Below the pieces are notes generated by a model. It saw only the letters and a list, made by a program, of their open reading frames with translations. It ran no database searches and was not told where the DNA came from. Made by a program: the position numbers and the translations under genes. DNA of 37,834 bases from a virus, in IMG/VR virus record IMGVR_UViG_3300036876_000071, positions 1 to 37,834 of that record, one strand, 5' to 3'. Shown here in pieces: positions 3,288 through 37,834 of this stretch (its first letter is position 1; every line of letters begins with the position of its first letter).

Positions 3288-4859
3288 TCAATCCTCCGGC
3301 GGATAATTCCAGCCAGGGCCTTGGGCTCCAGGGTCGTAGCACTGCGCAGAGTAGGCCAGGAGGCTCTGATAATCCGTGTTGCTGGTCGGGCCAACGGGCA
3401 TGATGCCGGTATTGGGCTTGCGGATGTAAGGCTGCGCCTGACCAACCGCCAGGATAACCCGTTCGATTTCCGGATAAACCGTTTTGATCCCATAGCGAAA
3501 TTCACCCATCCAAAACCCGCGATTTTTCTTGTAATTGTTCACCGCGCACTGAACGCCGGTGTTCGGATCGATGTAAGTGAAGTACTCGGGCGACATCCAT
3601 TTCCACTGACCCATGAAACTGCGGGACAGACCGAACTTCATGGAGGAATTCACCGAGGCAATATCGCCGACAAAGACTTCGCGCGCATCCCGGTTGTAGC
3701 AGTGATACATGCGGATGGGGGCGTTCTTCCAATCAGGGGAGAACACCGGCTTGAGTCCGAAAGTCGCTTGGACATTGACGAACGGCCAGACCTGCTCGAT
3801 CCAAACCGCGTTCGCGCCGCCCACAACAGGCCCCCCATTGATGCCAGGGAGGCTTTGCCCGTCCAAGTCAGCCCGGAACCGGAACCGCATTTGCTGGTCA
3901 TCCCGTTTGAACAACCAATCGCCGCAACCCGCTGTCACTCCAAGGCTGTAGAACACGCCCGCTTTCGTGAAATCAGACGCTTTGTAGAGGCCAGTCAACG
4001 CGGGGTTGGCGGCTGTAAGCGCCCGGCCCGTGTCCGAGTCCATCGTGATGGTGAACTTGCCTTCCGGCAACCATTCCTCATCGTGATAACCATTGGCTGC
4101 CAGGTCGGCTTGCGAGTTCACCAGATATTCCATCGTCAACTGGCCCATGGAAGCGATCAGCCCAGCAGTCGTGGCGGCAGTCAAAGAGCCTGCCGTAACC
4201 AAGGCCGTCAATCCGCCGCTCTGATTCAGGTTAATCATCAGCGAATTGTTGGTGTAGGCCGGGGCGGTCCCGTTGGACACGGTAAACATGTTGTCGCTGA
4301 TGTCCAAGGATTGCGGGTTGCCATAGGCATCGGACAAGCCAGCCAGCCAGAGGCCGCTCTGCGTTGCCGCCGTGCCGCATCGGCGCAGGATGAGCAACCG
4401 GAGGAAGTCGGATGAAATGATTTCGGGCAGCTTTTTGTAGCCCGCGAACACCGCCTCCATTTTGGCGATCCCCTCGTCCACCGTGTTCAACTGGTCGAGG
4501 CAGAACGGGATGGAGTTGTACTCGCGCTGGAACAGGTCGTAGCGCAACTGGTCAACGCCGTGGGAGATGACTTGCGGCGTCATGTCGCAAGGCGTGCCGA
4601 CGCAGGGATCGGCCACGAATTGTTGCCACATGCCCGGATCATTGGGCCGTCCGACATAGACCTTTTCGTGCAGTTGCGTTGTCTCCTTGAACAACGGCCA
4701 TTTGCTGGTCTTGTACATGCCGGTGTAGATGTACTGGGCAGGTTTGCGATCCCTGGCTATTACTTTATCCCAAGGATACGGGCGCGAGCCGAGGAAGTTG
4801 TTGAAAGCGCCACACTGGGCGGTTGTCAAAGGCATAAAATCAAATTCGTTTTGCCCCAT
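3288..4859 (-). CDS. Probable major capsid protein
   Basis: A 523-residue protein without signal peptide or membrane segments, with mixed alpha/beta composition and many aromatic residues. I assign it as the capsid protein by size, by its place at the head of a structural operon, by the strong terminator right behind it, and because no other gene here suits that role. Features typical of large HK97-fold capsid proteins are a helical stretch at about 125-165 and long beta-rich regions afterwards, but I cannot point to a diagnostic motif. No Shine-Dalgarno precedes ATG 4859; a second in-frame ATG at 4835 also lacks one. It is transcribed away from the regulator gene at 5062. Alternatives are another large virion protein or a decoration protein. 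Confidence 0.55.
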   Translation of the reverse strand: MGQNEFDFMPLTTAQCGAFNNFLGSRPYPWDKVIARDRKPAQYIYTGMYKTSKWPLFKETTQLHEKVYVGRPNDPGMWQQFVADPCVGTPCDMTPQVISHGVDQLRYDLFQREYNSIPFCLDQLNTVDEGIAKMEAVFAGYKKLPEIISSDFLRLLILRRCGTAATQSGLWLAGLSDAYGNPQSLDISDNMFTVSNGTAPAYTNNSLMINLNQSGGLTALVTAGSLTAATTAGLIASMGQLTMEYLVNSQADLAANGYHDEEWLPEGKFTITMDSDTGRALTAANPALTGLYKASDFTKAGVFYSLGVTAGCGDWLFKRDDQQMRFRFRADLDGQSLPGINGGPVVGGANAVWIEQVWPFVNVQATFGLKPVFSPDWKNAPIRMYHCYNRDAREVFVGDIASVNSSMKFGLSRSFMGQWKWMSPEYFTYIDPNTGVQCAVNNYKKNRGFWMGEFRYGIKTVYPEIERVILAVGQAQPYIRKPNTGIMPVGPTSNTDYQSLLAYSAQCYDPGAQGPGWNYPPED

Positions 4860-5061: not shown

Positions 5062-5253
5062 ATGCCTGAGAAAGAGAACTTCGGAAATAAGCTGCGCGCG
5101 TGGAGAAAACGCCGAGGCTGGCTTCAAAAACAAGCGGCGGACGCTCTTTCGGTGTCACTGGACACATACCGGGCTTGGGAATACAACAACGGCGCGCCGC
5201 ACAAAGCCCCGTCAAGGGCCGAGATTGAGCAGCGCATGGAGGCCGCCAAGTAA
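5062..5253 (+). CDS. Small XRE-family helix-turn-helix transcriptional regulator
   Basis: Sixty-three residues from ATG 5062 (a TTG at 5053 is an alternative). The whole protein is one helix-turn-helix domain: helix 1 LRAWRKRRGW, then LQKQAADALSV and SLDTYRAWEYN, matching the Cro/C1-type pattern in which residues of the third helix contact DNA. It has no dimerisation or sensor domain, so it resembles Cro-sized phage repressors or restriction-controller proteins. It is the first gene of the plus-strand operon, ending one base before the next start region, and may regulate its own divergent promoter region. DNA-binding function is fairly sure; the target is inferred. Confidence 0.8.
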   Translation: MPEKENFGNKLRAWRKRRGWLQKQAADALSVSLDTYRAWEYNNGAPHKAPSRAEIEQRMEAAK

Positions 5254-5254
5254 C

Positions 5255-6553
5255 ATGCAACTATATGTCCAACTTGGTCGCAACGGGGACATAATGAACA
5301 TCCTGCCGTTGCTCTATCAGGACTTCCTCAAAACAGGGGAGAAGTCGAGCTTAATGGTCGCCGGGGAGTTTTCACCGTTGCTGGAAGGCGTGTCCTATGT
5401 GACCCCCATCGTGCATCCCGGCCCGCACTACGAGATTGACATAGCCGCCGCCAAGGCCCGCGAGATCGCCCCCGCCGCCATCGTCACCCAAGTCAACGGG
5501 CCGCCCATTGCCGTCAAGCAACAGACCTACGAGAAGGCCGGGCAAGATCGCGCGCGAACCACGTCCTTTCAAAAGGAGTCATGGAAAGTGGCGGGGCGAT
5601 TGGGGCAATGGGATGAATGCCTGCCCTTAGTGTTCGACCAACGCGACAAGGCGCGAGAACAAAAGCTGATGGACAGTTGCGGCGTTATCCCGAAACGACG
5701 CGGAGAAAAGAAGCCCCTGATCCTCCTGGCCCTCAACAGCAATTCCAGCCCGTTTCCCTACATAGAATTGCTGCGGTTCGTGCTGGATAAGGCGTTTGGA
5801 GTCGAATACCGGCTTTTGGACTTGCCCAAGGCGGAGCGGCTTTACGATTTGCTGGCCCTATACGAGCGCGCCGCGTTGCTCGTGGCCGTGGACTCCGCGC
5901 CGTTGCACCTGGCCTGGGCGTGCCGTCCGCTGCCTGTTTTCGCCCTGGCGCAAGACCGGCCTACGCTGTGGCACGGGGCGTCGTGGAGGCCGAATCATCT
6001 GTGGTATTGCCGGTATCACGACTGGCCGAAAAGGGCGGTGGAGATGATGGATGCGATTGCATCCCTACCCGCGCCCTCAAACCCAAACGATTTCGTCACC
6101 GTCTGGAATGCCTACCAGGACAAGGGCCATTATCCCGCGTGGCCTTCTGTTCTGCCCGCTGCCGTTGGTTCATGCGGACGGGATACCTGGACAATGTTTC
6201 AGGAACCTAGGCGCGCGCCGTTTCTCCGCGATGTCATCAGAATGGCCATGCAACGGGCCGGGAGCGACGCATCGCAAATCCACCTGACACGCTCCCACGT
6301 TTCCGTCCAACCACCGGACTTGGCCCCGCCCTACTTCGCTTACCGGATGCTCAAGACCGCCGATGGCCTACAGTTCTCCCCCGTGGCCGACTTGTTCTGC
6401 GCCACGAAAGCATGGTGGCGCGAAGTCCTGCCGGAGATACCCGATTTCGTGCTGGGCAACGATCATTTGTGGAGCGAGGGATTGCGTGTGCTGTTCCAGA
6501 AGCGCGGGGCCAAGAACGCGACGGGGTGTTGCTCGTTTGCAAAGGAAAAATGA
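5255..6553 (+). CDS. GT9-like (heptosyltransferase-type) glycosyltransferase with a C-terminal extension
   Basis: Start ATG 5255 was chosen because it begins directly after the regulator's stop and has GGAGG about 12 bases upstream; a longer frame exists but overlaps the regulator. The 432-residue protein begins with an LGRNGDIMNILPLL motif, as in GT-B transferases of family 9. At 211-222 it has AVDSAPLHLAWA, the counterpart of the GT9 nucleotide-sugar motif (D-x-G/A-x-x-H-L-A; D213, H218). Residues about 270-432 form an added domain ending in DLFCATKAWW...LPEIPDFVLGND, not part of GT9. It should transfer a sugar from a nucleotide donor in the cytoplasm. It overlaps the next gene by ATGA and heads the carbohydrate cassette. 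Confidence 0.75.
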   Translation: MQLYVQLGRNGDIMNILPLLYQDFLKTGEKSSLMVAGEFSPLLEGVSYVTPIVHPGPHYEIDIAAAKAREIAPAAIVTQVNGPPIAVKQQTYEKAGQDRARTTSFQKESWKVAGRLGQWDECLPLVFDQRDKAREQKLMDSCGVIPKRRGEKKPLILLALNSNSSPFPYIELLRFVLDKAFGVEYRLLDLPKAERLYDLLALYERAALLVAVDSAPLHLAWACRPLPVFALAQDRPTLWHGASWRPNHLWYCRYHDWPKRAVEMMDAIASLPAPSNPNDFVTVWNAYQDKGHYPAWPSVLPAAVGSCGRDTWTMFQEPRRAPFLRDVIRMAMQRAGSDASQIHLTRSHVSVQPPDLAPPYFAYRMLKTADGLQFSPVADLFCATKAWWREVLPEIPDFVLGNDHLWSEGLRVLFQKRGAKNATGCCSFAKEK

Positions 6554-7527
6554 CCCCTGCCCCCTCACTCTTGCACAATAAAAAACTGGCCGATGAGTAT
6601 ATCGCCAAGGCCGGGAACCCGTCGCGTTACCCGCCTATCAGCGAGCAGGTGGAGCTTCTGCCGCTGGATACTTCACGCCTGCCCGCGCACGCCTATAACC
6701 CATCGTTGTATCAGTCCAACGGTCACACCTACATGACTTATCGGCATCACGTCAGGGGCGGATTCCAGACCCTTATCGGCATCGCCGAGCTTGACAAAGA
6801 TGGCCGCGTCATGAAAACGCGCGACCTGCCCATTGAAGGATTCAGCGTCGAGGACGCGCACCTTTTCTCCCTGCATGGGGAGCCTTGGGTATCCTGGGTG
6901 GAGGCACGATGGGAAGGCCGATCCGCCAATCCCAAATCCGTCATCAAATACGCGCAACTCGAATTGCCGCCAGCGCACGAAAACCCGGATTGGAAATGGA
7001 ACGCGATTCGGACGTATCAGCCCGCCGCCGGCGGGAACGACTGGGGTTCAGTGCAAAAGAACTGGGTCTTTTTCGAGCAGGACGAAAATCTGTTCTGCGT
7101 TTTTCTTTCGCACCCGCAACACTGCGTTTGGCAAATCCAAGGCGGGACAGTCATCGCCGATAACAAGACCGCGCCCGCGCAATGGCCCTACGGAGCCATC
7201 CGGGGCGGAAACGTAGTGCCTTACGGGAATAAACTCCTGCGCTTCTTTCATTCGAGCACCATTCACGGCATCGGGCAATACGAGAAGCGGTATTACATCG
7301 GCGCGCTCATAATGGAGGGGAAGCCCCCTTTCGCCGTGCAAGCCATCAGTAAAAGGCCCATCATCTACGGCAGCGAAGCGCCCGTGGTGGACTGCTACCA
7401 TTTCAAGCCCGGCGTGGCATTCCCTTGTGGAGCCGTGGTGGACAGGGGAAGTTTCATCGTGGCTTTGGGCGTGAACGATTGCCAATGCGCCTTGGCGAGA
7501 ATAAAACCGGAGCAACTTAATTTGTGA
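6550..7527 (+). CDS. GH130-like five-bladed beta-propeller protein (glycoside phosphorylase/hydrolase-like)
   Basis: ATG 6550 overlaps the preceding stop (ATGA), giving 325 residues, the usual size for GH130-type propellers. Motifs in order: YNPSLYQSNGHTYMTYRHH (about 50-68), IGIAELDKDG, EDAHLFSLHGEPWVSW (first acidic motif), QKNWVFFEQDENLFCVF, RGGNVVPYGNKLLRFFHSS, and YIGALIMEGKPPF...ISKRPI near the end. This order is what I know from GH130 mannoside phosphorylases and from related propellers encoded beside glycosyltransferases. It may bind, trim or phosphorolyse a mannose-like glycan, or assist the transferases. It ends in a GTGA overlap with the methyltransferase gene. Fold assignment reasonably sure; catalytic activity unproven. 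Confidence 0.65.
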   Translation: MTPAPSLLHNKKLADEYIAKAGNPSRYPPISEQVELLPLDTSRLPAHAYNPSLYQSNGHTYMTYRHHVRGGFQTLIGIAELDKDGRVMKTRDLPIEGFSVEDAHLFSLHGEPWVSWVEARWEGRSANPKSVIKYAQLELPPAHENPDWKWNAIRTYQPAAGGNDWGSVQKNWVFFEQDENLFCVFLSHPQHCVWQIQGGTVIADNKTAPAQWPYGAIRGGNVVPYGNKLLRFFHSSTIHGIGQYEKRYYIGALIMEGKPPFAVQAISKRPIIYGSEAPVVDCYHFKPGVAFPCGAVVDRGSFIVALGVNDCQCALARIKPEQLNL

Positions 7528-8162
7528 TCCAAACCATCGATCTCATAAACGCTTGGCTGGATAATGACCATGTGCCAAAGATTGAAGGGTGGTGTACCCC
7601 GTTAAAAGGTTGCCATCTTGCCAACCTTACTTTCAAACTGAAACCGAAAGTGGCCGTGGAAATTGGCGTGTTCGCCGGAAAGTCTCTTTTGCCGATTGCG
7701 TTGGCTTTGAAAGAAATCGGGTTTGGAAAAGTAATAGCCATTGATCCCTGGTCTTCAAAGGAGTCCCAGAAGGGATATTCACAAGAGGACTACGAATGGT
7801 GGGGAAAAATTGACCATGAGGATATTTTCCGAAAGTTTAACCAGTTAATTGAAAGATTTGAGTTGCGCGGCCATGTGGAAGTGTGGCGCACAACCAGCGA
7901 TCTTGCCACACCGCCCGAATTCGTTGATTTGTTGCACATTGACGGCCAGCATACCGAACAGGCCATTCGTGACGTGGCCCGTTACGCCTCAAAAGTAAGA
8001 CGCGGAGGAATGGTTGTTATGGACGATATACACAACGGGGAATTTGGGGTCAAGGTAAGCGAGGCCGTGGATAATCTTTTGGGAATGGGCTTTAAAACTT
8101 TTTTTGAACTCCACGTTGGTTCAGACGACTTTGCAATTTATGAAAAATCTTTGCTTTTATGA
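7524..8162 (+). CDS. SAM-dependent methyltransferase (Methyltransf_24 type)
   Basis: The GTG start at 7524 overlaps the preceding TGA. The 212-residue protein shows SAM motif I (VEIGVFAGKS, 45-54), an acidic strand end (VIAIDPW) and VDLLHIDGQHT followed by RRGGMVVMDDI, the signature of the Rossmann methyltransferases common in sugar and O-antigen clusters. Such enzymes often O-methylate sugars, which caps chains. The DNA is markedly less GC-rich than upstream genes (about 45% in 7561-7620 versus 68% in 5461-5520, counted by eye), pointing to a separate origin. It overlaps the aminotransferase gene by ATGA. Family sure; the sugar substrate is inferred from neighbours. Confidence 0.8.
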   Translation: MIQTIDLINAWLDNDHVPKIEGWCTPLKGCHLANLTFKLKPKVAVEIGVFAGKSLLPIALALKEIGFGKVIAIDPWSSKESQKGYSQEDYEWWGKIDHEDIFRKFNQLIERFELRGHVEVWRTTSDLATPPEFVDLLHIDGQHTEQAIRDVARYASKVRRGGMVVMDDIHNGEFGVKVSEAVDNLLGMGFKTFFELHVGSDDFAIYEKSLLL

Positions 8163-8791
8163 GCGCACAAGGAGTCCACAAAATCACTGAGGAATTTGAA
8201 AGAGAGTTGTGTCGTTACACTGGCTCTCCGTTTGCTGTTGCGGTGGACAACGAATCAAACGCCCTGTCTCTTTGCCTTTGGAGAGACAAAGGCTCATACG
8301 ACACGATTATTATTCCTGAAAGGACGTACATGAGCGTGCCGTGTGAAATTTTATTGATGGGAGGCCGTGTTCAGTTTTCTCCAGTTCGAGGCGAGACGCT
8401 AACGGGAGCTTACCGCCTTGAGCCGACTCGAATTTGGGATTCAGCGTTGCGATTCACAGCCGACATGTACATGCCTGGATCGCTTATGTGCCTGTCATTT
8501 ACTGGCCCGTACAAACACCTCAAGCTCGGCAAGGGCGGCGCTATCCTATGTGATAAGGATGAAGATTATAAATGGTTCAAGAAAGCCCGATTCTCAGGCC
8601 GAAACGAGTGTAGTTACCTTGTGGACGAGTTCACGATGTTGGGTAAAAACTATTACATGATGCCGGAAATCGCGGCCAGAGGATTGCTCTTGATGTCCCA
8701 ATTTTACAATCTCGATGGCAGCAAAAAGAAGATGCCTGACCTTACGCTGCCATACCCAAATCTCAACCTTCACCCCGCATACAAACAATAA
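8159..8791 (+). CDS. Short DegT/DnrJ/EryC1-like PLP sugar aminotransferase
   Basis: At 210 residues this is little more than half the usual DegT length of about 370. The core is recognisable: FERELCRYTGSPFAVAVDNESNAL matches the N-terminal cofactor-binding part, D94 in RIWDSAL matches the Asp that contacts the pyridine nitrogen, and K119 in SFTGPYKHLKLGKGG matches the Schiff-base lysine followed by the Gly-rich turn. The linker between these is shortened and the C-terminal small domain is nearly absent, yet the frame is intact and coupled at both ends (ATGA before, TAATG after). It may make a 3- or 4-amino sugar for the acyltransferase encoded next. A degenerate, non-catalytic relic is the alternative. 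Confidence 0.65.
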   Translation: MSAQGVHKITEEFERELCRYTGSPFAVAVDNESNALSLCLWRDKGSYDTIIIPERTYMSVPCEILLMGGRVQFSPVRGETLTGAYRLEPTRIWDSALRFTADMYMPGSLMCLSFTGPYKHLKLGKGGAILCDKDEDYKWFKKARFSGRNECSYLVDEFTMLGKNYYMMPEIAARGLLLMSQFYNLDGSKKKMPDLTLPYPNLNLHPAYKQ

Positions 8792-9432
8792 TGAATATTC
8801 TTGTAATAGGCAGCGGAGGATACGCCGGAGTGGTCATAAGCGCCATCCATGCGATGCGTAATAACTGGAAAATTATCGGATTGATTGATGAGACGCTGGC
8901 GGAGGGTCAGAAGCGTTACGGATACGAAATTCGACACGAGTCACGGTGGTTTAGCCTTGACAACTTCAACTGTTTTATAGCCATCGGAGATGCTTCCGTG
9001 CGTGAACGCATCGCGGCAAAACAATACCCATTCGTAAACGTCATCCATCCCACGGTCAGAACACGCACCCCTTTTTGTAAAGGCACGTATTTTGGGGAGA
9101 ATTGCGTTGTAGGGAACAATTCTGTAGTGGGCAATTTCTCGATCATCAACACCGGAGTCATACTCGAACACGATAGCAGTGTGGGGGATTTCAGTCATCT
9201 TTGTCCCGGCGTCGTTACTGGCGGCCGAGTACATATAGGAGACCGGACTACCATTGGTTTGAATGCGAGCATCCGAGACGGCGTTCAGATTGGGAACAAC
9301 TGCGTAATAGGCATGGGAAGCGTAGTCTTAAAAGATGTGCCGAATAATACCACTGGATGGGGAAACCCATTCACCGCCCCTGTGTGCGCGCGCGGCTGCG
9401 CAAACTGGTGTGACGACTCCACAGCCCTGTGA
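8791..9432 (+). CDS. PglD/NeuD-like sugar O/N-acyltransferase (left-handed beta-helix)
   Basis: Start overlaps the previous stop as TAATG. The 213-residue protein has an N-terminal Rossmann-like part (ILVIGSGGYAG, 3-13) and a C-terminal hexapeptide-repeat helix from about 100 (GENCVVGNNSVVGNFSII, GDRTTIGLNASI, GNNCVIGMGSVV). H127 in LEHDSSVGDFSH fits the catalytic His of PglD-type enzymes, and H136 lies nine residues later, as the second His does in that family. It should transfer an acetyl group from acetyl-CoA to an amino or hydroxyl sugar. Next to a DegT-like aminotransferase this recalls the PglE-PglD pair of bacillosamine synthesis. The gene shares the lower GC of its two upstream neighbours. 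Confidence 0.85.
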   Translation: MNILVIGSGGYAGVVISAIHAMRNNWKIIGLIDETLAEGQKRYGYEIRHESRWFSLDNFNCFIAIGDASVRERIAAKQYPFVNVIHPTVRTRTPFCKGTYFGENCVVGNNSVVGNFSIINTGVILEHDSSVGDFSHLCPGVVTGGRVHIGDRTTIGLNASIRDGVQIGNNCVIGMGSVVLKDVPNNTTGWGNPFTAPVCARGCANWCDDSTAL

Positions 9433-9436
9433 AACA

Positions 9437-10057
9437 ATGAAACTTGGTCATCTCAACGTCCGCCCTTTCGTGATGGTAGTCCCCGAACTGCCGGAAAAGA
9501 CCGCCTTCATTCAAGCCCACCTGAAAAGCGTTGGCATCGAGGCGGAAGAATTCCATTGCATCAACGCCCTCACGGCGGGGCTTCGCACGGTTCATCCCTA
9601 CGAATACGACGCCCCTGGCAGCGGATGGAACATCGGGGTAAAGCCTGTGGCTTTGCTCGTTAGCTGCCAAATGTTTTGGTGCGCCGCTCAATACATGCCC
9701 GACTCGCATTTTCTATTTTTGGAATGGGACGCCAAGTTTCATCCCGACTGGCGCGAGCGCACCGAGCAGGCTTTGCGTGACGTGCCGCCCGATTTCGATT
9801 TCCTTTTCTTGGGGTCGTGTTGCTGTAACGACAAGCCGCGAACCAAGATCAAGGGCGAAGTTTGGGAAGTGAAATACCCCTTATGCGGCCACGCCGTAAT
9901 CATCGCCCGCAGGGCTATGCCGACGTTGCTGGCCACGCAAAGGAAGTTTTACGCCCCGGCGGACATCAGCCTTGCCTTCCATTCTTTCCCGCTTTTGAAG
10001 GTGTACACCGTGCTGCCGAGAGTGGCCGATCAGTTTGACAATAACCTGCCCGAATGA
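9437..10057 (+). CDS. GT25-like glycosyltransferase (LPS-type), variant DxD
   Basis: ATG 9437 lies four bases after the previous stop; a longer frame overlaps the acyltransferase gene and is unlikely. The 206-residue protein has LFLEWDAKFHPDW (94-106), which matches the GT25 motif where EDD normally stands; here it is E-W-D. It is followed by FDFLFLGSCC and GHAVIIARRAM, the equivalents of the family's DxxLLG and G-aYlisrraA motifs. GT25 enzymes add galactose or other hexoses to lipooligosaccharide or protein. GC returns to about 60% here, unlike the three genes before it. It closes the carbohydrate cassette. The EWD substitution might weaken metal binding. Confidence 0.65.
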   Translation: MKLGHLNVRPFVMVVPELPEKTAFIQAHLKSVGIEAEEFHCINALTAGLRTVHPYEYDAPGSGWNIGVKPVALLVSCQMFWCAAQYMPDSHFLFLEWDAKFHPDWRERTEQALRDVPPDFDFLFLGSCCCNDKPRTKIKGEVWEVKYPLCGHAVIIARRAMPTLLATQRKFYAPADISLAFHSFPLLKVYTVLPRVADQFDNNLPE

Positions 10058-10070
10058 GAAAGTGAACATA

Positions 10071-10355
10071 ATGAACGTATCAGAACGCATCGAAATCCTG
10101 TTGGATGAAGTCAATGGCCTGCAAATTGGACACCCCCCGGCAGAGGCCGGGCCGAACGCTCCCAATTTTTTCATCCGCGCCAAACAGACCATTGAGACCT
10201 CGGAAAAAGGCAACTTCGTTGAACTTGAGTACCAAACCATCGGGGAATCTATCGTGGAGTGCCTGGAACACTTGGCCAAAGCGGTCGAAACCGCCGGGGC
10301 ACTCAAGAAGAAAGGGCGCAGCCCGATCCTGACGCGGGGAGGGGAGAGACAATGA
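10071..10355 (+). CDS. Small hypothetical protein upstream of the scaffold gene
   Basis: Ninety-four residues from ATG 10071, with a weak GAGA-type ribosome site; a longer frame would overlap the glycosyltransferase. The protein is mostly helical (ERIEILLDEVNG, then ESIVECLEHLAKAVETAGAL) and ends with a basic tail. No family is recognised. Its TGA overlaps the next ATG, which links it to the scaffold-like gene two steps down, so a small head-assembly role is more likely than a role in sugar metabolism. That placement is inference. Confidence 0.65.
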   Translation: MNVSERIEILLDEVNGLQIGHPPAEAGPNAPNFFIRAKQTIETSEKGNFVELEYQTIGESIVECLEHLAKAVETAGALKKKGRSPILTRGGERQ

Positions 10356-10648
10356 ACGCCAAGGAAGCCCTGTTGCGCGACAAGGAACTGGCCAAATGGC
10401 TGGTGTCCGTCACGCATGATCCGCGATGGGAGAACGTCGAAATCATAGTCCGGGCCTACCTGGCGGACACCGCGCCGTCTTGGGAAGAACTGAAAGGCGG
10501 AAACGCCGCCCTGTCACTTCTGACGAGCATCACCGACAATGATCCTACTTCCCCTTCCTTACCAACCCCAGGATTAGACAAACGAAACCTGACCGAAATC
10601 ATGGAGGATGTCCGAAAAACCACCTCCGAACCACCTAAACCGTTATGA
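10352..10648 (+). CDS. Small hypothetical protein, head-assembly operon
   Basis: Ninety-eight residues; ATG 10352 overlaps the preceding stop and is preceded by a strong purine-rich ribosome site (GGGGAGGGGAGA). The N-terminal 50 residues are helical with a Trp-containing WLVSVTHDPRWENV segment, and the C-terminal 40 residues are Pro/Ser/Thr-rich and probably disordered. I do not recognise the family. The ATGA overlap with the scaffold-like gene and the strong ribosome site suggest abundant co-translation with head proteins. Confidence 0.7.
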   Translation: MNAKEALLRDKELAKWLVSVTHDPRWENVEIIVRAYLADTAPSWEELKGGNAALSLLTSITDNDPTSPSLPTPGLDKRNLTEIMEDVRKTTSEPPKPL

Positions 10649-11919
10649 TTACCCACCCATTGATTCTTCTCGCGCCTGACTCGCCTGCGACTAGTGGCGG
10701 CGCGCCGCCAGCCCCGGCACCGGCACCAGCCCCGGCCCCAGCCTCCGCACCATCACCAGCAGCCCCGGCGCCATCGGAAACTCCCACCGCCGCCGATCAC
10801 GCCGAAGTAGAAAACGCTTTCCAGCGGTTCGACCCGACGTTTAAGCCGCCCGAAGCCAAACCATCGGAAGCGGCCGCTAAACCATCGGAAGCGGCCGCTA
10901 AACCATCGGAAGCGGCCGCCGCTCTGGAAGCGCCGCCCAAACCGGCTTCCGTCGCGCCGCCGCCCGCCGCCGGAGAACCCAAGACGCCTAAAGAGTTGCG
11001 CGATGCGTATCAGAAGCTCCAAACCGACCTTAACGCCCGTATTGCGTCGCACGCTGCACTTGAGGCGAAGATCAAGCAATACGAGGCCATCGGGAAGGAG
11101 GCAGGCTCCCTCAAGTCCCTGTTGACCTCCAAGGAGAAGCGCATCAACGAGCTTGAGGCCGAAAAGCGCGCGCTCAAGTGGGAGGCATCCCCGGAATTCA
11201 AAAAACAGTATGAGCAGCCCTTTGATGAAGCTGCGGAAAACGCGGCTACTTACGTGTCAAAACTTCGCAAGACGGACGGCACCCAGGCTCGTTGGGAGGA
11301 TTTCATCCCATTGTACCGTCTGGCCAAAGACACCACAATGGGCGCGGCTAAGGCCAAGGCACAAGAGTTGTTTGGCGATGCCGAGGCCGATGAGGTTATG
11401 TTCTCCGTCCGGGAGTTGGTTCGCCTTGACCGTGTTAAAACCAAGGCATACGAGGAGGAATTCGAGGCGGCAAAATCCAATTGGAAAGAGAAGGAAGAAC
11501 ACGAACACGCTCAACGGCTCACCCAGGAACAGGCTGGCAAGGAAATTTTCGGCAAGGTCAATGCCGACCTGCAAGCCTCGGTGGAGCTATACCGCGACCC
11601 GCCAGAGGACAAGGAAGCCTCGACCGAACGCGCGCGGGGACTGGCCCTTGCCGACGCCAAAGCCCGGACACCGCAAGAACTGTGCTGGAAACTGGCCCAT
11701 TGCCGCCAAATGGTTGGAGCCTTCTTCCCGTTGCAACTGCAAAACTCCCGGCTCAAATCCAAAGTGGCGGACTTGGAAAAGCAAGTTGCCGGGTTGAAAC
11801 CCAGAGGTCCCGGCGGCGGAGATTCCCGGCCAGGCGGTGAAGCTGCTCCGAAGCCGGCGGAAGTCACCCAGGAAAGTTGGGCGGCGGAAGCTCGCAAAGC
11901 GATGGAAGGCATTGAATAA
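10645..11919 (+). CDS. Probable capsid scaffolding protein
   Basis: The 424-residue protein has a Pro/Ala-rich N-terminus (about 15-50, alternating P-A), three exact seven-residue repeats KPSEAAA (72-92), a long charged coiled-coil region (about 115-340) and a disordered Gly/Pro C-terminus before a short final helix (ESWAAEARKAMEGIE). Abundant charge, coiled coil and low aromatic content are what phage scaffolds look like, and it sits in the head-gene neighbourhood. The repeats are 21-bp tandem units at 10858-10920, each carrying GCGGCCGC or a one-base variant. It overlaps both neighbours (ATGA before, TAATG after). A helical internal protein is the alternative. Confidence 0.6.
   Translation: MITHPLILLAPDSPATSGGAPPAPAPAPAPAPASAPSPAAPAPSETPTAADHAEVENAFQRFDPTFKPPEAKPSEAAAKPSEAAAKPSEAAAALEAPPKPASVAPPPAAGEPKTPKELRDAYQKLQTDLNARIASHAALEAKIKQYEAIGKEAGSLKSLLTSKEKRINELEAEKRALKWEASPEFKKQYEQPFDEAAENAATYVSKLRKTDGTQARWEDFIPLYRLAKDTTMGAAKAKAQELFGDAEADEVMFSVRELVRLDRVKTKAYEEEFEAAKSNWKEKEEHEHAQRLTQEQAGKEIFGKVNADLQASVELYRDPPEDKEASTERARGLALADAKARTPQELCWKLAHCRQMVGAFFPLQLQNSRLKSKVADLEKQVAGLKPRGPGGGDSRPGGEAAPKPAEVTQESWAAEARKAMEGIE
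10858..10920 (+). repeat. Three tandem 21-bp units inside the scaffold-like gene
   Basis: Units at 10858-10878, 10879-10899 and 10900-10920 differ only at the final base. They encode KPSEAAA three times. Near-perfect DNA identity indicates recent slippage; copy number probably varies between related phages. Confidence 0.9.
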
Positions 11920-12377
11920 TGCTTCGGACTCTGCCGAACCTGACGTTTCCGGTCACGCGGAAAACGATTGCGCCGCTATTGGATGGGGTAATGAACCTCA
12001 ACTTTTTGGACGCCGGGCTGACCGAAAACGATCAACGCGCCTTGTCCATCATGCTGCACACGCATGATATTTGGGTGAAAACCAACGGGCGCGTGGATTG
12101 GCGTGGGCGCGCGGGGCATGAACGGCTCAAGCAGGACACCGAGACATTCATCTGCGGGTACCCAATTACCACGCGCAACGGCGATTTGGCGGCAAGTCAT
12201 TTGATGATTGACTTTCACGACACGCAGATTCGGATTTTGGGAACGGGCGGGACACCACTGCCGAATACTGTCAATGGATTACTCGATCTCTGCCCCGATC
12301 TGTGCCAGTTGTCGCCCGATGACGAAAAGCGGATCGGATTGCTCATGGATTACTGCGGGAAAAAACCGGCCATATAA
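11919..12377 (+). CDS. Hypothetical protein closing the plus-strand head operon
   Basis: A 152-residue protein whose ATG overlaps the scaffold stop as TAATG. It has no signal peptide or membrane helix. The middle part is beta-rich (TFICGYPITTRNGDLAASH, HLMIDFHDTQIRILG) and the end is acidic with three Cys around LLDLCPDLCQL and DYCGK. I recognise no family. Being the last gene before a strong terminator and following the scaffold, it may be a head-completion protein, a suggestion from position only. Confidence 0.7.
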   Translation: MLRTLPNLTFPVTRKTIAPLLDGVMNLNFLDAGLTENDQRALSIMLHTHDIWVKTNGRVDWRGRAGHERLKQDTETFICGYPITTRNGDLAASHLMIDFHDTQIRILGTGGTPLPNTVNGLLDLCPDLCQLSPDDEKRIGLLMDYCGKKPAI

Positions 12378-12419
12378 TTTCCGGTCTGTCTGGCCGGGAA
12401 ATGCGAATCAAAAACAGCG

Positions 12420-12450
12420 AGCGCGCTCCGTGTGGGGCGCGCTTTCGTTT
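12420..12450 (+). terminator. Intrinsic terminator of the plus-strand regulator/sugar/scaffold operon
   Basis: A 10-bp stem (12420-12429 with 12434-12443, one G-T pair) encloses the loop GTGT and is followed by TTCGTTT. It starts 43 bases after the last stop, in the gap where plus- and minus-strand operons converge. Confidence 0.75.
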
Positions 12451-12726
12451 AAAGATTCAACGCTGGCAAGGGCTCGCTGAGGCAGGGCAAGCAAAAAAAG
12501 TGCCAGGTGGCCCGGTGAGTGGGGGTCAAAAGTGGGCATCGTGAAATGGTCGGGGGGTGACTTCCGGCAGTTTGCGGGGTTTGCGGGGTTTGTTTTGCTG
12601 TTTCGGTAAAAGTCTCCTGTAAACGTACGCGAGAGGGGTTTTAGGGAAAGTCCGTTTGAAACCCCGCAAACCCAGCGTCTGCCACCGGGTGTGACGGTAA
12701 TCCTGCCCCAGTTAAAGATTCAACGC
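12449..12726. repeat. 15-bp direct repeat bracketing the convergent intergenic region
   Basis: TTAAAGATTCAACGC occurs at 12449-12463, just after the terminator, and again at 12712-12726, where it forms the end of the ATP-grasp gene (its TAA stop is the first three bases read in reverse). The copies are 263 bases apart in the same direction. The outer copy looks like a remnant of the same gene end, as a recombination or duplication scar would leave. Confidence 0.7.
12571..12670. repeat. G-rich tandem nonamers with an inverted partner
   Basis: TTTGCGGGG is tandemly repeated at 12571-12588 and followed by TTT. Its complement AAACCCCGCAAA stands at 12659-12670. The 12-bp arms could fold into a long hairpin serving as a terminator for the minus-strand operon or as a protein site. 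The rest of 12464-12711 holds no gene that I can support. Confidence 0.5.
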
Positions 12727-14043
12727 CGTCTCAGGCGGGGGGATTGGCTCTTTCCCAAACTCGATGTCCGCCTTGACTGATTCTTCCAGTTCATGCAGCA
12801 AGTCCACCAAGGCGTCCGTGTCGGCGTCCAGCCCGTCCGGCAGCAAGTCCGTGTGCTCGTGCAGGTTATCAATCACGCCCTTGATGCTGTCTCCGGTAGC
12901 CCCAAGCCAGCCCACTTCATGGCCCTGCCCTTCATCGGCGGGAAACGCAATCTTGCCGTCAATCTGAAAACAGTTTCCAAACCCCGTCCACTCCTTCAAC
13001 TCTGGCGGGATGCGGATCACGGGCCACTCGTCACGCTCGCTTTTGGTGGTAATGATGGCTTCCGCCGCGTGCGTGGCGGACGGTTTAAGCTCGCACAATT
13101 CGCCGTTGGCTCCGGCCCAAACGTGTTCCGGCCAGTTCTCCCAAATCATCATCTGCGACAGCGTGGACGGCAGACCGATGCGGCAGCACGGGTCAATGAA
13201 ATAGCCTTTGTCACCCACAATCCTTACTTCCATGCTCCACTGGTTGCGGTAACGAAACTCCTTCAAGACCGGCCCGAAAGCGTCCAGCACCTCCTGAATT
13301 TTCTCCGGCATTTCATCGCGCGGGGTGACGACGCCCAAGTACGAATGATCCTTACACTCGTCACCGTGGAGCATCAGCTTGGGCCATTGGCCATCCACGC
13401 AGGACGTGTCCCCGCCGATTTCCAGCGGAGTGTCGATGGCGTCGAACACCAGGAACGCGATGAGTTCTTTGGACGGCCCCATCTTCACCGCCAGCACGTC
13501 CAGCTTCCCCTCGTCCAAGTCCCACGACCGCCAATGGAACGTCTCCATTGATCCCCGGTAGCGGCTGATCTTGATATATTTGTCCTCTGCGTCTTTCAGG
13601 TGGAGGCGGAGCGCGTTCAGCCCTTTGACGGGCACGAACGGGGCCACCTCAAGCCCCAGGCCTTTGAGCACCTTGCAGAAGTGTTGCCGGAAGATTTCCA
13701 GTGTGTCCCCGTCACGCGATCCCCACACCGGAAAACCTTGGGACTCAAGTTCAAGCTGCAAATCGCCCAGGCCGATGTCCGGGAACACGAAGCAATCAAT
13801 TTCCTTTTTGATCTTCCAGAAGGAATCAATTTTCTCGATGCCCTCCATGTCGTGGCCGATGATACAGCGATTGATGGTGGGGAAACCCTCGGAGTTGGGA
13901 CAGTAGTATAGGACTCGCGCGAAACCGTTTCGGGCAAGGCGTTGCGCCACCGGGATACCAAGGCCGTGGTCAATCACGCAGGCGGTTGATTGGGAAACAT
14001 CCTTCATATCTACGTGTAACACCTTATACCCGTCGCACCCCAT
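12712..14043 (-). CDS. ATP-grasp enzyme, distantly PurD (GAR synthetase)-like, in the packaging operon
   Basis: The 443-residue protein starts with a Rossmann-like pre-grasp part (HGLGIPVAQRLARNGFARVLYYC, 26-48), similar to the start of PurD/carboxylase-type ATP-grasp enzymes. GSRDGDTLEIFRQHFCKVL (108-126) matches the lid before the grasp. K158 in KYIKISRYRGSMET suits the nucleotide-binding Lys and Gly loop. E272/R274 in SMEVRIVG and D284 with R288 in YFIDPCCRIG suit the metal- and phosphate-binding end. ATP-grasp enzymes join a carboxylate to an amine or thiol through an acyl-phosphate. Residues 310-443 are a family-specific tail. Its position just after the portal suggests modification of a virion or host protein rather than purine synthesis; that is inference. 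Confidence 0.65.
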   Translation of the reverse strand: MGCDGYKVLHVDMKDVSQSTACVIDHGLGIPVAQRLARNGFARVLYYCPNSEGFPTINRCIIGHDMEGIEKIDSFWKIKKEIDCFVFPDIGLGDLQLELESQGFPVWGSRDGDTLEIFRQHFCKVLKGLGLEVAPFVPVKGLNALRLHLKDAEDKYIKISRYRGSMETFHWRSWDLDEGKLDVLAVKMGPSKELIAFLVFDAIDTPLEIGGDTSCVDGQWPKLMLHGDECKDHSYLGVVTPRDEMPEKIQEVLDAFGPVLKEFRYRNQWSMEVRIVGDKGYFIDPCCRIGLPSTLSQMMIWENWPEHVWAGANGELCELKPSATHAAEAIITTKSERDEWPVIRIPPELKEWTGFGNCFQIDGKIAFPADEGQGHEVGWLGATGDSIKGVIDNLHEHTDLLPDGLDADTDALVDLLHELEESVKADIEFGKEPIPPPETALNL

Positions 14044-17057: not shown

Positions 17058-17381
17058 TCAAGAAACTTTTGCACCGCAGCCCTTGCAAGGACCGTTCAGT
17101 CCTGGGGTATCACCCATGATCGGCAGGTCATTCGACTGGCCGGGGTTGCACTCAATGCAGTAAAGCGGATCGTTCCCGCGGCTACTGCATTGGTATATGC
17201 TGATGTCTTCCATGGCTTCCCGGTAGGTCGCGCGTGGCAGGTTGTTCCCCTTGCGGAAGCCCCAAACCCGCTTGGCCATGTTTTCAATGACCGGCTCAGG
17301 GCCGAAACGATGGCCGTTTTGCTGGAAAAAATACCCGCCGCGCGGCGTCACGTCAAAAGATCGAAGTCGGTAGCAGGCCAT
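17058..17381 (-). CDS. Small Cys-rich protein next to the terminase gene
   Basis: A 107-residue protein starting in a TAATG overlap with the terminase stop. It has an aromatic-rich N-terminus (RGGYFFQQNGHRFGPEP) and six Cys: YQCSSRG, YCIEC, and CKGCG at the very end. CIEC and CKGC look like two zinc knuckle halves. It may be an accessory packaging or DNA-binding factor (small-terminase-like function cannot be excluded, as no small terminase is otherwise seen). I do not recognise the family. Confidence 0.65.
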   Translation of the reverse strand: MACYRLRSFDVTPRGGYFFQQNGHRFGPEPVIENMAKRVWGFRKGNNLPRATYREAMEDISIYQCSSRGNDPLYCIECNPGQSNDLPIMGDTPGLNGPCKGCGAKVS

Positions 17382-19267
17382 TATTTCACTCTTTCAAGAA
17401 GTCCGGCCTTGATGGCGTCCTCTTCAAGTTTTCGTTCGGTTTCAAACCAATCTTCTTCCTGTTTCTGTACATCTACCACGTCTTGGCCCAAACGTCCAAT
17501 GGTGAAACCGAGTTGCCGCGCCTTCTCGACGCCGATGGCGAGGCAGTCAAACAGGTCGGGTGACTTGCCCAAGCGTCGTTTCAAATCCTCCTTTTTCTTC
17601 GGGTCGGTCTTTGGTTCGACTTCGATCTTATCCCCGGACACCAGGTTGTAAATGCGCGCGCAGCCCTCGGCCATAACGTCCTCTAACAGCCCCCGCATCT
17701 GGCCAGCCTCGGCGGTGTATCGCGCCGAAAACCACATTTCAGAGACGAATTTCGAGTAATGCTCCCGGCAGGTCTTGAGCCGTTGCTGGCCCGTGGTTTT
17801 GTCCTCTGTGTAAAGGTCTGCCCGCACAGCCCGCTCGGTGGGTTGCGCGCCGGAATCAATCGCCGTTGGCACGCGCCGGCCAAACCGCCGGGCGAACGCC
17901 GCTCCGATCGTGCCCTTGCCGGTCGCGTCGTAACCTACATTCTCCGGCGGGATGACGTAGGTATGGCTCCCGTCTGGCATTTTCGTTTCGCCCAACTTCA
18001 CGGCGAGGGTGTTGGCGATTTGATCTTCCGGGGAAACCAGTTCGCCCGTCTTTGCATTGGTCAACGACAGGTCAATGCGAAACACGTCGTAAGGAGCAAT
18101 GTCCAATATCTCTTTTCCACTGGTGTCGTAACCAAACTTCATTTCCATGCCGATACAGCGATCTTCCCCTCCGTAGGTGGGGTCGAGGGCGTACAGGCGC
18201 GTCTGCTTGTCATCGGCCCACACAACGCCCTCCAGCGCGTGATTGTCGCGGCATATCTGGCGGGTGATGACGCGCGAAAGCGCGAAACCAACCTTCATTA
18301 CTCCCAGGATGAGACGGTAATAGTCGAAAGAGTTTGGCCCGGAATCGTGCGCGATGCGCGCGGCAAACTTCGGCCCGATGAGGCGCGGGTAAGGCTCCGG
18401 TTTGCCCGGTTTGACTTTGAAATTGTCCGAGTCCGGCCCGTACAGGTTGACGCATTTCCCGCCCATGAACTTGGTCGGCCAAACTTCGGTCGTGGTTGGT
18501 TCCGGGTGGTTCGCCCACCCCTCCAACGGCTCCGCCGTCCGCGAAAGCTGATCTTCCGGGTCGTGCTTCGGATTCCCTGACCCAATGATCTTTACGTTGC
18601 TGTTGGAGAACAGATGCGGCCAGGAACCGGAAAACCCTTCACTCATGAATTGAAGCTCGTCGCACACGTAAATAATGTTGTCCTGTTTCACGCCGGCCAA
18701 CGTGCCCAAGCCCACAAATCGGTTGCCCACGATGCAAGGACGGCAAATGACGCCCTTGCGGAATATCCGAATCTCGTCCTCATCCATGTTGTCGGTCGTG
18801 ATGGCGCGCTTGTACTGAACGATATGGCCCGGTATCCACGGATGAAGATTGCGCGCGTTTTGCCAGAGCATAGTCAATTCCGCCCACACCCCAATGTCCA
18901 GCTTGTCCATGGTGGTTGTGGAGAGGATGACCAGGGTGTTGTCCGGCTTGGCGAGATAGGACATGAGGGCGTATTCGACGGCGTGACTTGTTTTCTGAGT
19001 CGAGGCCGCACCCATGAGAATCGTCACGTCGTTCTCGATAAAGTTGTGGTACATCAAGTCCGTCCAGTGGTGACGGTAACGATCAGGCCACGCCAGACGG
19101 CGCGCGTTCATGTAATGCTCAAACAGGCCCAGCCCGCATGTTTCACCACGGCTGTCAATCCAACTTCCGCCCTTGGCGATACAGGCCAATTCGATTTGAA
19201 AGTCCGAGACTTCCACCGGCCAACCCGCGCCGTATTTGGCCTTGAGATTGAGTTTTTGCTTGCGCAT
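17381..19267 (-). CDS. terL: Terminase large subunit (ATPase/nuclease)
   Basis: 628 residues with both terminase domains. ATPase: a variant Walker A GAASTQKT (86-93, K92), Walker B IIYVCDEL (D203, E204) and a coupling motif GSGNP (229-233). Nuclease: RNase-H-type acidic residues D362 (LYALDPTYGGED), D447 (VGYDATGKG) and D571/D574 (SPDLFDCLAIG). The protein pumps DNA into the head through the portal and cuts the concatemer. The Walker A lacks the usual second Gly (normally GxxGxGKS/T), a recognised kind of variation in phage terminases. It starts 43 bases from the divergent gene at 19311. No clear Shine-Dalgarno precedes ATG 19267. Downstream are two Cys-rich genes and the portal in one overlapping series. 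Confidence 0.92.
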   Translation of the reverse strand: MRKQKLNLKAKYGAGWPVEVSDFQIELACIAKGGSWIDSRGETCGLGLFEHYMNARRLAWPDRYRHHWTDLMYHNFIENDVTILMGAASTQKTSHAVEYALMSYLAKPDNTLVILSTTTMDKLDIGVWAELTMLWQNARNLHPWIPGHIVQYKRAITTDNMDEDEIRIFRKGVICRPCIVGNRFVGLGTLAGVKQDNIIYVCDELQFMSEGFSGSWPHLFSNSNVKIIGSGNPKHDPEDQLSRTAEPLEGWANHPEPTTTEVWPTKFMGGKCVNLYGPDSDNFKVKPGKPEPYPRLIGPKFAARIAHDSGPNSFDYYRLILGVMKVGFALSRVITRQICRDNHALEGVVWADDKQTRLYALDPTYGGEDRCIGMEMKFGYDTSGKEILDIAPYDVFRIDLSLTNAKTGELVSPEDQIANTLAVKLGETKMPDGSHTYVIPPENVGYDATGKGTIGAAFARRFGRRVPTAIDSGAQPTERAVRADLYTEDKTTGQQRLKTCREHYSKFVSEMWFSARYTAEAGQMRGLLEDVMAEGCARIYNLVSGDKIEVEPKTDPKKKEDLKRRLGKSPDLFDCLAIGVEKARQLGFTIGRLGQDVVDVQKQEEDWFETERKLEEDAIKAGLLERVK

Positions 19268-23982: not shown

Positions 23983-24437
23983 TGAAAGAGGAATTCCAGG
24001 CGGAAATCGCCAAGCAGATGGCAGGCTTCAAACAGGCCGCAAATTGGATGCGCGCCTACGAAATCCTTTGTCACATGGTTGATGATCTGATTGACCGGGA
24101 CAAGAACGGCATGGATTACACGCTCTTGACGCTGGACGCCTTTAGCCTTGCCGCCGACGTGTATTCAGCCCCGTTTTACCAGCAGAATTGCACCTGGCTG
24201 TACCCGCTCTGCAAAAGTCTCCACCGGGTTTGGTCTGCCAGCATCGCATGGGAACATGACGCCACGCCTTGGAAGGCCCATTACGCCGACGTGCTGCGCT
24301 GTTGCGGGAGTGAGATGACGATGGCCGTCTTGGAACACGTCTGCCACTTGCCCCAGTCCGAACTTCGCCGGATTGACGCCATGATGCGCGAAGCGGGATG
24401 GGAGATTCATCACGATAAGGAGGGGAATCCGATATGA
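23982..24437 (+). CDS. Conserved-type helical phage protein of unknown function
   Basis: 151 residues, start overlapping the preceding stop as TGATG with GAGG about nine bases upstream. It is all-helical in appearance: WMRAYEILCHMVDDLIDRD, LTLDAFSLAADVYSAPFYQ and WSASIAWEHDATPWKAHYADVLRCCG. The spacing of W/Y/C residues resembles a family I associate with environmental podophages beside tail-connector genes, but I know no function for it. It overlaps the next gene (GT-A-like) by ATGA, so the two are likely coupled. Confidence 0.7.
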   Translation: MKEEFQAEIAKQMAGFKQAANWMRAYEILCHMVDDLIDRDKNGMDYTLLTLDAFSLAADVYSAPFYQQNCTWLYPLCKSLHRVWSASIAWEHDATPWKAHYADVLRCCGSEMTMAVLEHVCHLPQSELRRIDAMMREAGWEIHHDKEGNPI

Positions 24438-25174
24438 TTTCATCCGTTCACATCCCGATCTACTGCGAATCTGAGCAAGCCAAGGCCGGGTCGTTGCTCA
24501 CGCTCGAGACGGTGAGACTGGGGTTCCCGACTGTGCCCATCACGGCTCACTGGATGGCTGATGGTGCAAAAGTTATGCCGGAATTGCCTGCCCTTTGTAA
24601 TCTGTTCAACATCGGACTGAGGAAAGGCCACGGGCAACGAAACTACGTGCTGATAAAAAATCTGTGTGAAACGGAAGAAACAGGATTCGCCGTCATTGAC
24701 TCCGACGTGGTTTTCTTCGACGACTGCGAGGGCTTCGATTCCGCTTCCCGCATCGCCGGGGAGTTCATTCCCTCTTTCGATTGCCCCATCGCCAAGGCCC
24801 GCACCGCCTGCCGGTTGCACCCCGCGTTCTTTGTCGTGCCCGACCCGCCCCGGCTCCGGGCATCCTTGGCTGAGTTGTATCAGCCCGCTTTCCCGGAGTT
24901 CTGCCCGTTCAATCCGTTTGCTCCGGTGACGGTGTTCAACCATCGAAAGCCCCTGTTCTACGATGTCTGCTCGATTCTGTATCAGGCCATCGGCGGGGAA
25001 TCCTTCGATGACGCCATGCTGGATAAGTTCGAGCATTGTTACAGCGGGTCTTACGCGCATCGCCTGCCGTTCCCACACGCGAAGTTCCTCTCGGAGTGCT
25101 ACGAGAACCCGGCCAAGGCAAAGGGCTTCCGGGCCGTGATGCGGAAGTTTTACGAGGAAAGGAAACCGGCATGA
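24434..25174 (+). CDS. GT-A-type glycosyltransferase in the tail/ejection operon
   Basis: 246 residues. The N-terminal strand VHIPIYCESEQAKAGSLLTLETVRL begins a nucleotide-binding Rossmann-like domain. DSDVVFFDD (89-97) has the D-x-D (D89, D91) that binds metal and sugar nucleotide in GT-A enzymes, with the typical preceding strand FAVI. Residues 180-240 hold acceptor-side elements (DVCSILYQAIGGESFDDAMLDKFEHCYSGSY, ending in a His-rich HRLPFPHAKFL). It is cytoplasmic, with no membrane anchor. It lies well away from the carbohydrate cassette but may belong to the same modification. ATGA overlaps mark both ends. The donor and acceptor are unknown. Confidence 0.7.
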   Translation: MISSVHIPIYCESEQAKAGSLLTLETVRLGFPTVPITAHWMADGAKVMPELPALCNLFNIGLRKGHGQRNYVLIKNLCETEETGFAVIDSDVVFFDDCEGFDSASRIAGEFIPSFDCPIAKARTACRLHPAFFVVPDPPRLRASLAELYQPAFPEFCPFNPFAPVTVFNHRKPLFYDVCSILYQAIGGESFDDAMLDKFEHCYSGSYAHRLPFPHAKFLSECYENPAKAKGFRAVMRKFYEERKPA

Positions 25175-36596: not shown

Positions 36597-36922
36597 CTAG
36601 GAAGGTAGTAGGGACGCGAAAGGGTGTCAAGGGCATTGGGGAACTGTTGAGGAATTCTGAACAGTTGCCGAAAGCGTAAAGTTTCCCGACAGTGTTTCCA
36701 GAAAATGGACAGTGAGTGTCTCAGGATGGGACAGTGTGTATAAAAGTTGGCAAAGCGTTGGTGCTGAAGTGGTTGCGGTGGTTTTTCGGAGAGACGGTGT
36801 CCCATTTTCGCACTCGGCAAAAATTTCCGCATGTTGATTTGCAACGAGTTATGATTTGGCACGGATAGTGCATACGTTATCTGGTGTCGGGGTCAAAGCG
36901 GCCCCGGCAAACGAAAGAAAAT
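36597..36922 (+). promoter_or_regulatory. Leader region with three GACAGTG boxes and a TATAAA element
   Basis: GACAGTG occurs at 36688-36694, 36708-36714 and 36730-36736, 20 and 22 bases apart (two helical turns), followed at 36739-36744 by TATAAA. This looks like a regulated promoter facing the plus-strand genes at the right end. The core GACAGT also appears inside the AACTGTCATAACC array (its reverse complement), so the same protein might bind both. A minus-strand frame covering much of this region has an unlikely translation, and I rejected it. Confidence 0.4.
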
Positions 36923-37177
36923 ATGAATATTAAAACTGAATGGAATGAAGTGGTTACCGCCTGCGGGAATGTTCTTCGGGGACTGGTTGAAGTTGCGGGC
37001 AAAGAGTTCCGCCTGGAAATGAACCTCGAAAAGACCCACCTCCAAATAATTGACCAAGACTCGCGCTGCGAGACATGCTCAGTGGGCGAGGACGGCGACG
37101 TTATTGCGGACGGTGGAGAATTTGTGACGGGGGACTGGACTGACTCAGACTGGTCGGACCTTAAAAAAATGGGGTAG
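36923..37177 (+). CDS. Small acidic protein of unknown function
   Basis: 84 residues from ATG 36923, preceded by a GAAAGAAA ribosome-site-like leader that also stands, with small changes, before the two repeat-protein genes. The N-terminal half is alpha/beta (NEVVTACGNVLRGLVEVAGKEFRLEMNLEKTHLQII). The second half is very acidic (DGDVIADGGEFVTGDWTDSDWSDLKK) with one CETC. A DNA-mimic or anti-host role would suit such charge, but nothing shows it directly. Confidence 0.65.
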   Translation: MNIKTEWNEVVTACGNVLRGLVEVAGKEFRLEMNLEKTHLQIIDQDSRCETCSVGEDGDVIADGGEFVTGDWTDSDWSDLKKMG

Positions 37178-37207
37178 TGGGCTACTTTGCCCACAGAAAG
37201 AAAAATT

Positions 37208-37453
37208 ATGACAAAAGAACAGACAGCCCGCGCCGCCTACACCGCCGCCCTCGCCGCCCGCGCCGATTACGACGCCGCCCGCGAAGCCGCCTACGCCGCC
37301 GCCCGCGTCGCCTGCGCCGCCTACGACGCCGCCCGCGCCGCCTGCGACGCCGCCGACGCCGCCTACGCCGCCGCCTGCGCCGCCGCCGACGCCGCCTACG
37401 CCGCAGCCTGCGCTGCCGCCGCTTCCGCCGATGCTACTAAGGTTGCTAAGTAG
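37208..37453 (+). CDS. Ala-rich repeat protein 1 (MTKEQTA family)
   Basis: 81 residues from ATG 37208, chosen because it aligns with the start of the next gene (MTKEQTA). Residues 8-75 are a near-continuous run of four- and seven-residue Ala repeats with Y, C, D or R at fixed positions (for example AYAAARVACAAYDAARAACDAADAAY). The composition predicts one long helix, with Tyr, Asp and Arg along one face and Cys on another. The GCC-rich DNA is slippage-prone. It looks like a coiled or stacked helix with unknown role. RBS-like AGAAAGAAAAATT precedes it. Confidence 0.7.
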   Translation: MTKEQTARAAYTAALAARADYDAAREAAYAAARVACAAYDAARAACDAADAAYAAACAAADAAYAAACAAAASADATKVAK

Positions 37454-37469
37454 ATTTGTAAAAGTCGAA

Positions 37470-37507: not shown

Positions 37508-37560
37508 CTGATGATGACTAATTCATTGGAACAACGGCCCCAGAAAAAGAAAGAGAAAAT

Positions 37561-37833: not shown

Positions 37834-37834
37834 C

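Follow-up and report, generated by a model that had tools for sequence, protein, structure and literature searches.

A sugar-enzyme cassette with exchangeable modules beside a putative phage capsid gene: a candidate virion-glycosylation locus

The window analysed here, 37,834 bases long, corresponds to one IMG/VR record (IMGVR_UViG_3300036876_000071). In it, six open reading frames (ORFs), termed A to F, lie head-to-tail on the plus strand at 5255-10057, near a putative capsid gene and a scaffold-like gene. They encode a GT9-like transferase (A), a GH130-like protein (B), a methyltransferase (C), a compact DegT-family protein (D), a sugar N-acetyltransferase (E) and a GT25-type transferase (F). 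On balance, we favour the interpretation of this segment as a modular virion-glycosylation locus, because the operon is of late type, its position beside the capsid gene is kept whatever module it carries, its enzymes are all soluble, and there is a precedent in mycobacteriophages, whose own transferases add glycans to their capsid and tail-tube proteins (PMC12363180). All six ORFs of the original prediction were confirmed together with their junctions, which are ATGA (A/B), GTGA (B/C), ATGA (C/D), TAATG (D/E) and a gap of four bases (E/F). The plus-strand run is longer than the cassette, since it starts with a helix-turn-helix gene at 5062, passes through A-F, two small genes and the scaffold-like gene, and ends with a 152-amino-acid (aa) gene at 12377, with nearly all genes overlapping or a few bases apart. 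This overlap with the scaffold-like run, together with the near constancy of A and B and their fusion in two records, supports virion glycosylation.

Searches baited with gene A and with the putative capsid protein gathered relatives, which were then mapped with profiles. The putative capsid gene was common to 16 IMG/VR records, the window included, which represent a family of tailed phages known from uncultured material, and sugar enzymes were found inside the capsid-scaffold interval of every record in which that interval was visible, with the scaffold-like gene forming the far edge of the cassette. A+B were present in 12 of the 16 records, fused into one protein in G001 and G014, and were followed by D-E-F in six (the window, G001, G002, G003, G004 and G006), by C without D-E in five (G005, G007, G013, G014 and G017), and in one (G008) by F together with two different methyltransferases. 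C occurred together with D-E-F in the window only. A large two-domain transferase-like protein took their place in G009, G010 and G011, in one case with a methyltransferase-like gene (by eye; G011 by near-identity to G009), and the interval of G012, cut by the contig end, held a transposase-like gene (by eye). Five related phages have the same order A-B-D-E-F, which speaks against a chance arrangement; in the four examined closely, identity was 35-70%. The original prediction had considered that the genes might turn out to be unrelated and separately distributed, which was not the case for A+B or for D+E. As judged from these arrangements, C and D-E-F are alternative modules that can be exchanged behind A+B; the proposal of one operon beside the scaffold gene thus holds for the head-to-tail arrangement, but not for a single fixed system. 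A transposase-like gene was seen adjoining the capsid gene in a relative (L068, 613-1497), where others have the sugar cassette.

Codon composition and phylogenetic trees were also analysed. The G+C content at third codon positions (GC3) of C, D and E of the window was 0.49-0.55, compared with 0.683 ± 0.042 for the remaining genes (z of −4.5 for C, with a GC3 of 0.49, and of −3.3 for both D and E), and in the relatives the GC3 of D and E was close to that of neighbouring genes. A recent import of C-D-E from a jumbo phage was considered and rejected: GC3 is anomalous, but D of the window grouped with the D proteins of its own family (support 100/99). C-D-E would be better explained by exchange between family members, possibly involving a relative of lower GC. 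On the capsid tree, four changes accounted for all cassette types, a value as low in 0 of 200 shuffles, and on the terminase tree six were needed (as low in 17 of 200). For the D-E-F label taken alone, the capsid tree required four changes; the terminase tree required six, at least five of them forced by well-supported branches, with clustering on the latter no greater than in shuffles. On these trees, the cassette moves relative to the packaging genes and tracks the capsid gene more closely. That module type needs fewer changes on the capsid than on the terminase tree supports virion glycosylation.

A second phage group (L080-L101, about 20 contigs), whose loci gave no match to the capsid or terminase models of the family, carried an A homologue alone, of about 508 aa, at the end of a virion-like operon whose last protein reaches 2,504 aa (virion role by eye). 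This position of A behind a virion-like operon also speaks for virion glycosylation. An FkbM-like methyltransferase gene often lies beside this A homologue, on the opposite strand.

Among the motif assignments of the original prediction, GH130, SAM methyltransferase, DegT and PglD/NeuD were upheld and GT25 had some support from relatives and fold comparison, whereas GT9 remained below the cut-off and D turned out to have about half the DegT length. The GT9-like assignment of gene A is the weakest of the six. Its protein, with the motif VAVDSAPLHLAWA and a C-terminal domain of about 150 aa of no recognised family, scored 17.3 bits against PF01075, under the gathering cut-off of 22; PF01075 was matched by 6 of 16 homologues (best 5.5e-5), the best NCBIfam match was the heptosyltransferase RfaQ (2e-4), and profile searches of the PDB gave chance matches only. 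Gene B passed the cut-off of GH130 (PF04041; 31.2 bits, cut-off 26), its family profile hit PDB 5b0p (1.2e-8), and its invariant residues E101/D102 aligned weakly with the EDPR region of that structure. Gene C matched Methyltransf_24 at 7.1e-17. Gene E matched PglD_N (Pfam, 1e-13) and passed the curated cut-off of NCBIfam TIGR03570 (166.9 bits, cut-off 160.8), with the perosamine N-acetyltransferase 4ea7 as nearest solved structure (family profile, 2.5e-36). The HD pair of its hexapeptide domain, H127 and D128, was invariant in five homologues and, by analogy, is predicted to hold the catalytic histidine of PglD-type enzymes. The window member of the F family had no match to GT25 (PF01755), which was found in three of five F homologues (best 2.5e-5); Foldseek matched F to COLGALT1 and mimivirus R655 (E about 6e-8) on a model of low confidence (predicted local distance difference test, pLDDT, 64), and the sequence profile hit 9crz (1.7e-4). 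That the genes belong to sugar-active families, as the original prediction proposed, is supported. No clear membrane segment was present in any of A-F (Kyte-Doolittle 19-residue maximum 1.71).

The same families would also fit a different acceptor. GT9 and GT25 are enzymes of the lipopolysaccharide (LPS) or lipooligosaccharide (LOS) core, which need no flippase, and RfaQ is the best NCBIfam match of gene A. A less likely but credible reading is that the cassette modifies the host envelope, placing a modified sugar on the LPS core or LOS at the cytoplasmic face and so blocking the adsorption of competing phages or the reabsorption of progeny. Sugar clusters of jumbo phages and cyanophages have been interpreted in this way (PMC7824862), and related D-E pairs lie within large mixed glycosyltransferase clusters. 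However, the operon is shared with the scaffold-like gene, and the capsid-adjacent position is kept across the family. Long-term seroconversion is unlikely because no integrase was found in the window and only 2 of 12 records were positive; nor did the locus resemble gtrABC serotype-conversion clusters, in which a temperate phage encodes a flippase and a transferase of the membrane, given the lack of a clear membrane segment in A-F and of an integrase in the window. A third acceptor, the bases of the phage DNA, which would receive a glycosylated and acylated hypermodification, seems very improbable. DNA is one proposed target of phage transferases (cited in PMC12619734 and PMC10202952), but E belongs to a nucleotide-sugar acetyltransferase family, the transferases matched by the GT25 fold act on proteins and glycans, and no thymidylate synthase homologue (PF00303, the only base-modification marker searched) was found in 12 records, the window and 11 relatives.

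Gene D encodes 210 aa, compared with about 370 aa for a full DegT protein with large and small domains, and scored 49.6 bits (4e-13) against DegT/DnrJ/EryC1/StrS (PF01041), well above the gathering cut-off of 19.8. Its AlphaFold model (pLDDT 88.4) matched DegT sugar aminotransferases in Foldseek (Pcryo_0618, GDP-perosamine synthase and ArnB; TM-score by query, TMq, 0.68, and by target, TMt, 0.39), so that the model was matched over its own length and less than half of the target was covered. Alignment to 8vr3 showed that the C-terminal domain is absent and that some 45 residues are missing from the interior, and placed K119 on the lysine of PRKT, which binds pyridoxal phosphate (PLP; SFxxxK region). 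Both K119 and D94, judged by eye as the likely PLP-ring aspartate, belong to 59 columns invariant in an alignment of 31 D sequences. The compact family was found in at least 47 viral contigs or loci in a scan of viral contigs, and an E-like acetyltransferase gene lay within six genes of D in 25 of 27 large-phage loci, a Methyltransf_24 gene in 13 of them. On one of these phage contigs, L009, a second and divergent compact DegT paralogue was observed at 12270-12926.

The patterns used to scan genome contigs were too narrow to prove that D is confined to viruses, since SAQGVHKI misses the common MAQGVHKI, and hence 395 bacterial genomes from a single phylum were searched with a D profile. The top hit was at 1.2e-12; the matched frames were mostly of 350-450 aa, that is ordinary full-length DegT proteins, with a few shorter frames of weak score. 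The gene D version is possibly phage-only, and no publication on a compact DegT was found in the literature searched. Tentatively, gene D may found a phage-specific class of minimal PLP sugar aminotransferases that lack the DegT C-terminal domain and are coupled to a PglD-type acetyltransferase, and with its capsid-adjacent locus this would make a cassette system that swaps particle glycans as bacteria swap O-antigens. Such a family would be a testable case of the minimum fold-type I PLP enzyme needed for activity, and would help annotators to spot these clusters in metagenomic phages.

A rather unlikely alternative, which would fit either a virion or an envelope acceptor, is that D has decayed into a DegT remnant without catalytic activity, serving in binding or as a structural part, the working unit being A, B, E and F fed with host-made amino sugars. 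It would account for the missing internal residues and C-terminal domain, for relatives that manage without D-E, and for the lack of a dehydratase partner in the phage family of the window: no short-chain dehydrogenase/reductase (SDR) 4,6-dehydratase (PF01370) was found in the window, itself probably a fragment, and none in 11 relatives whose records measure 52-59 kb. The invariance of K119, D94 and the other columns and the steady company of an E-like gene argue for a working enzyme, as does the finding of a PF01370 gene by the same search in all three D-carrying comparison phages checked; this gene adjoins D in L003 and is separated from D by one gene in Flavobacterium phage immuto. The earlier claim of a whole pathway in one operon was not borne out, since the dehydratase is missing and D lacks the DegT C-terminal domain. 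By eye, no nucleotidyltransferase was recognised among the window ORFs either (no dedicated search was made).

Comparison with known systems showed likeness and difference in each case. In mycobacteriophage virion glycosylation (Che8 gp110, Corndog gp38; PMC12363180), phage-encoded transferases modify the phage's own structural proteins, whereas the present locus, known from its genes alone, also has a DegT/NeuD-type tailoring set, a GH130 protein and a methyltransferase, with add-ons exchangeable between relatives. The clusters of cyanophages and jumbo phages (P-SSM2 and others; PMC7824862) likewise contain several glycosyltransferases and sugar-modifying enzymes that vary between relatives, but the complete ones encode epimerase/dehydratases and nucleotidyltransferases, while here no PF01370 enzyme is present and the locus lies between capsid-like and scaffold-like genes. 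A DegT-family gene adjoining a NeuD/PglD-family gene is also found in PerA-PerB (perosamine), PglE-PglD (bacillosamine) and VioA-VioB (viosamine); D differs from these in its length and in having no 4,6-dehydratase partner. Among isolates, the carriers of a compact DegT include phage immuto (MW353176), where the gene, 57% identical to D and named WecE transaminase in the record, is directly followed by a PglD-like gene. Immuto is a phage of 160 kb and differs in having an epimerase together with numerous transferases; no capsid gene is annotated in the 24.6-kb stretch read.

In the virion-glycosylation scheme, the operon of the scaffold-like protein would, late in infection, also yield A and B, a core transferase and its GH130-type partner, together with the exchangeable tailoring set. 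D, a likely aminotransferase, would place an amine on a host-made keto-sugar nucleotide, E would acetylate the resulting amino sugar, C would methylate the sugar, and F and A would move it onto a protein of the phage particle, most likely the capsid. The sequences themselves show which genes and families are present, their synteny, the exchange between modules, the compact form of D and the lack of a dehydratase; we infer the timing of transcription, the substrates, the order of reactions, the virion acceptor and the activity of D. Several points weigh against this scheme. The names of the capsid and scaffold genes derive from position alone, so that the "head-gene block" is a positional designation; physical linkage alone can explain the tighter fit to the capsid tree, and both trees comprise only 15 rows; GT9, GT25 and PglD families also act on the LPS core or on bacterial glycans; D may be inactive; and no dehydratase is encoded. 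If virion glycosylation holds, a fixed position beside the capsid gene with exchangeable sugar modules would imply selection for a varied particle surface, and glycans of phage particles have rarely been studied.

The features of the locus are listed in Table 1. The putative capsid protein was 56-61% identical in four relatives, with no match in Pfam, PHROG or the PDB; a search of 50,697 phage records found no relative, and no convincing Pfam or PHROG match was obtained for the putative portal and scaffold. The terminase showed Walker-type and nuclease motifs by eye, and PHROG phrog_2 "terminase large subunit" matched (1.8e-6) one protein of a 14-member panel that holds six terminase relatives; as far as these searches go, it is the only gene of the head block whose identity has independent support. 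Intein-like insertions were seen by eye in the terminases of three relatives (L108, 1498-4224; L115 and L116, 1501-4194), at two different sites, the Walker A motif and after an acidic DE pair.

Table 1. Coordinates of the cassette genes and of neighbouring features in the window
Feature	Coordinates	Strand	Basis
HTH_3-like small protein, 63 aa, head of the run	5062..5253	+	Pfam HTH_3, 7.9e-6
Gene A, GT9-like transferase with C-terminal domain of no recognised family	5255..6553	+	PF01075, below cut-off
Gene B, GH130-like (mannoside phosphorylase/synthase family)	6550..7527	+	PF04041
Gene C, S-adenosylmethionine (SAM) methyltransferase (Methyltransf_24)	7524..8162	+	Pfam, 7.1e-17
Gene D, compact DegT-family protein, 210 aa	8159..8791	+	PF01041, AlphaFold/Foldseek
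Gene E, NeuD/PglB/VioB-type sugar N-acetyltransferase	8791..9432	+	TIGR03570
Gene F, GT25-type glycosyltransferase	9437..10057	+	PF01755 via homologues, Foldseek
Small genes of 94 and 98 aa, after F and before the scaffold-like gene	10071..10648	+	Overlapping ORFs
Scaffold-like gene, 424 aa, Pro/Ala-rich N-terminus	10645..11919	+	Position and composition
Putative major capsid protein, near edge of cassette	3288..4859	-	Position and conservation
Terminase large subunit	17381..19267	-	Motifs by eye, PHROG match in relative panel

Homologues of the HTH_3-like gene were found at the same place in six other records, and the 98-aa gene, the second of the two small genes after F, was kept in nearly all relatives. 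The window is probably a fragment, because most relatives measure 52-59 kb and the ends of one of them, G017, match over about 120 bases, which suggests a complete genome near 55.4 kb. A 443-aa protein at 12712-14043 (minus strand) looked ATP-grasp-like by eye, with no family match, and is conserved beside the portal-like gene in relatives. Among the tail genes, a 246-aa protein at 24434-25174 (plus strand) contains a DxD-like stretch, VIDSDVVFFDD, and is a possible further glycosyltransferase; neither Pfam nor PHROG matched it, and the searched loci of the relatives contained no homologue. Near the right end of the window (36900-37834), low-complexity, Ala-rich repeated reading frames were observed (MTKEQTARAAYTAALAARADYDAA...).

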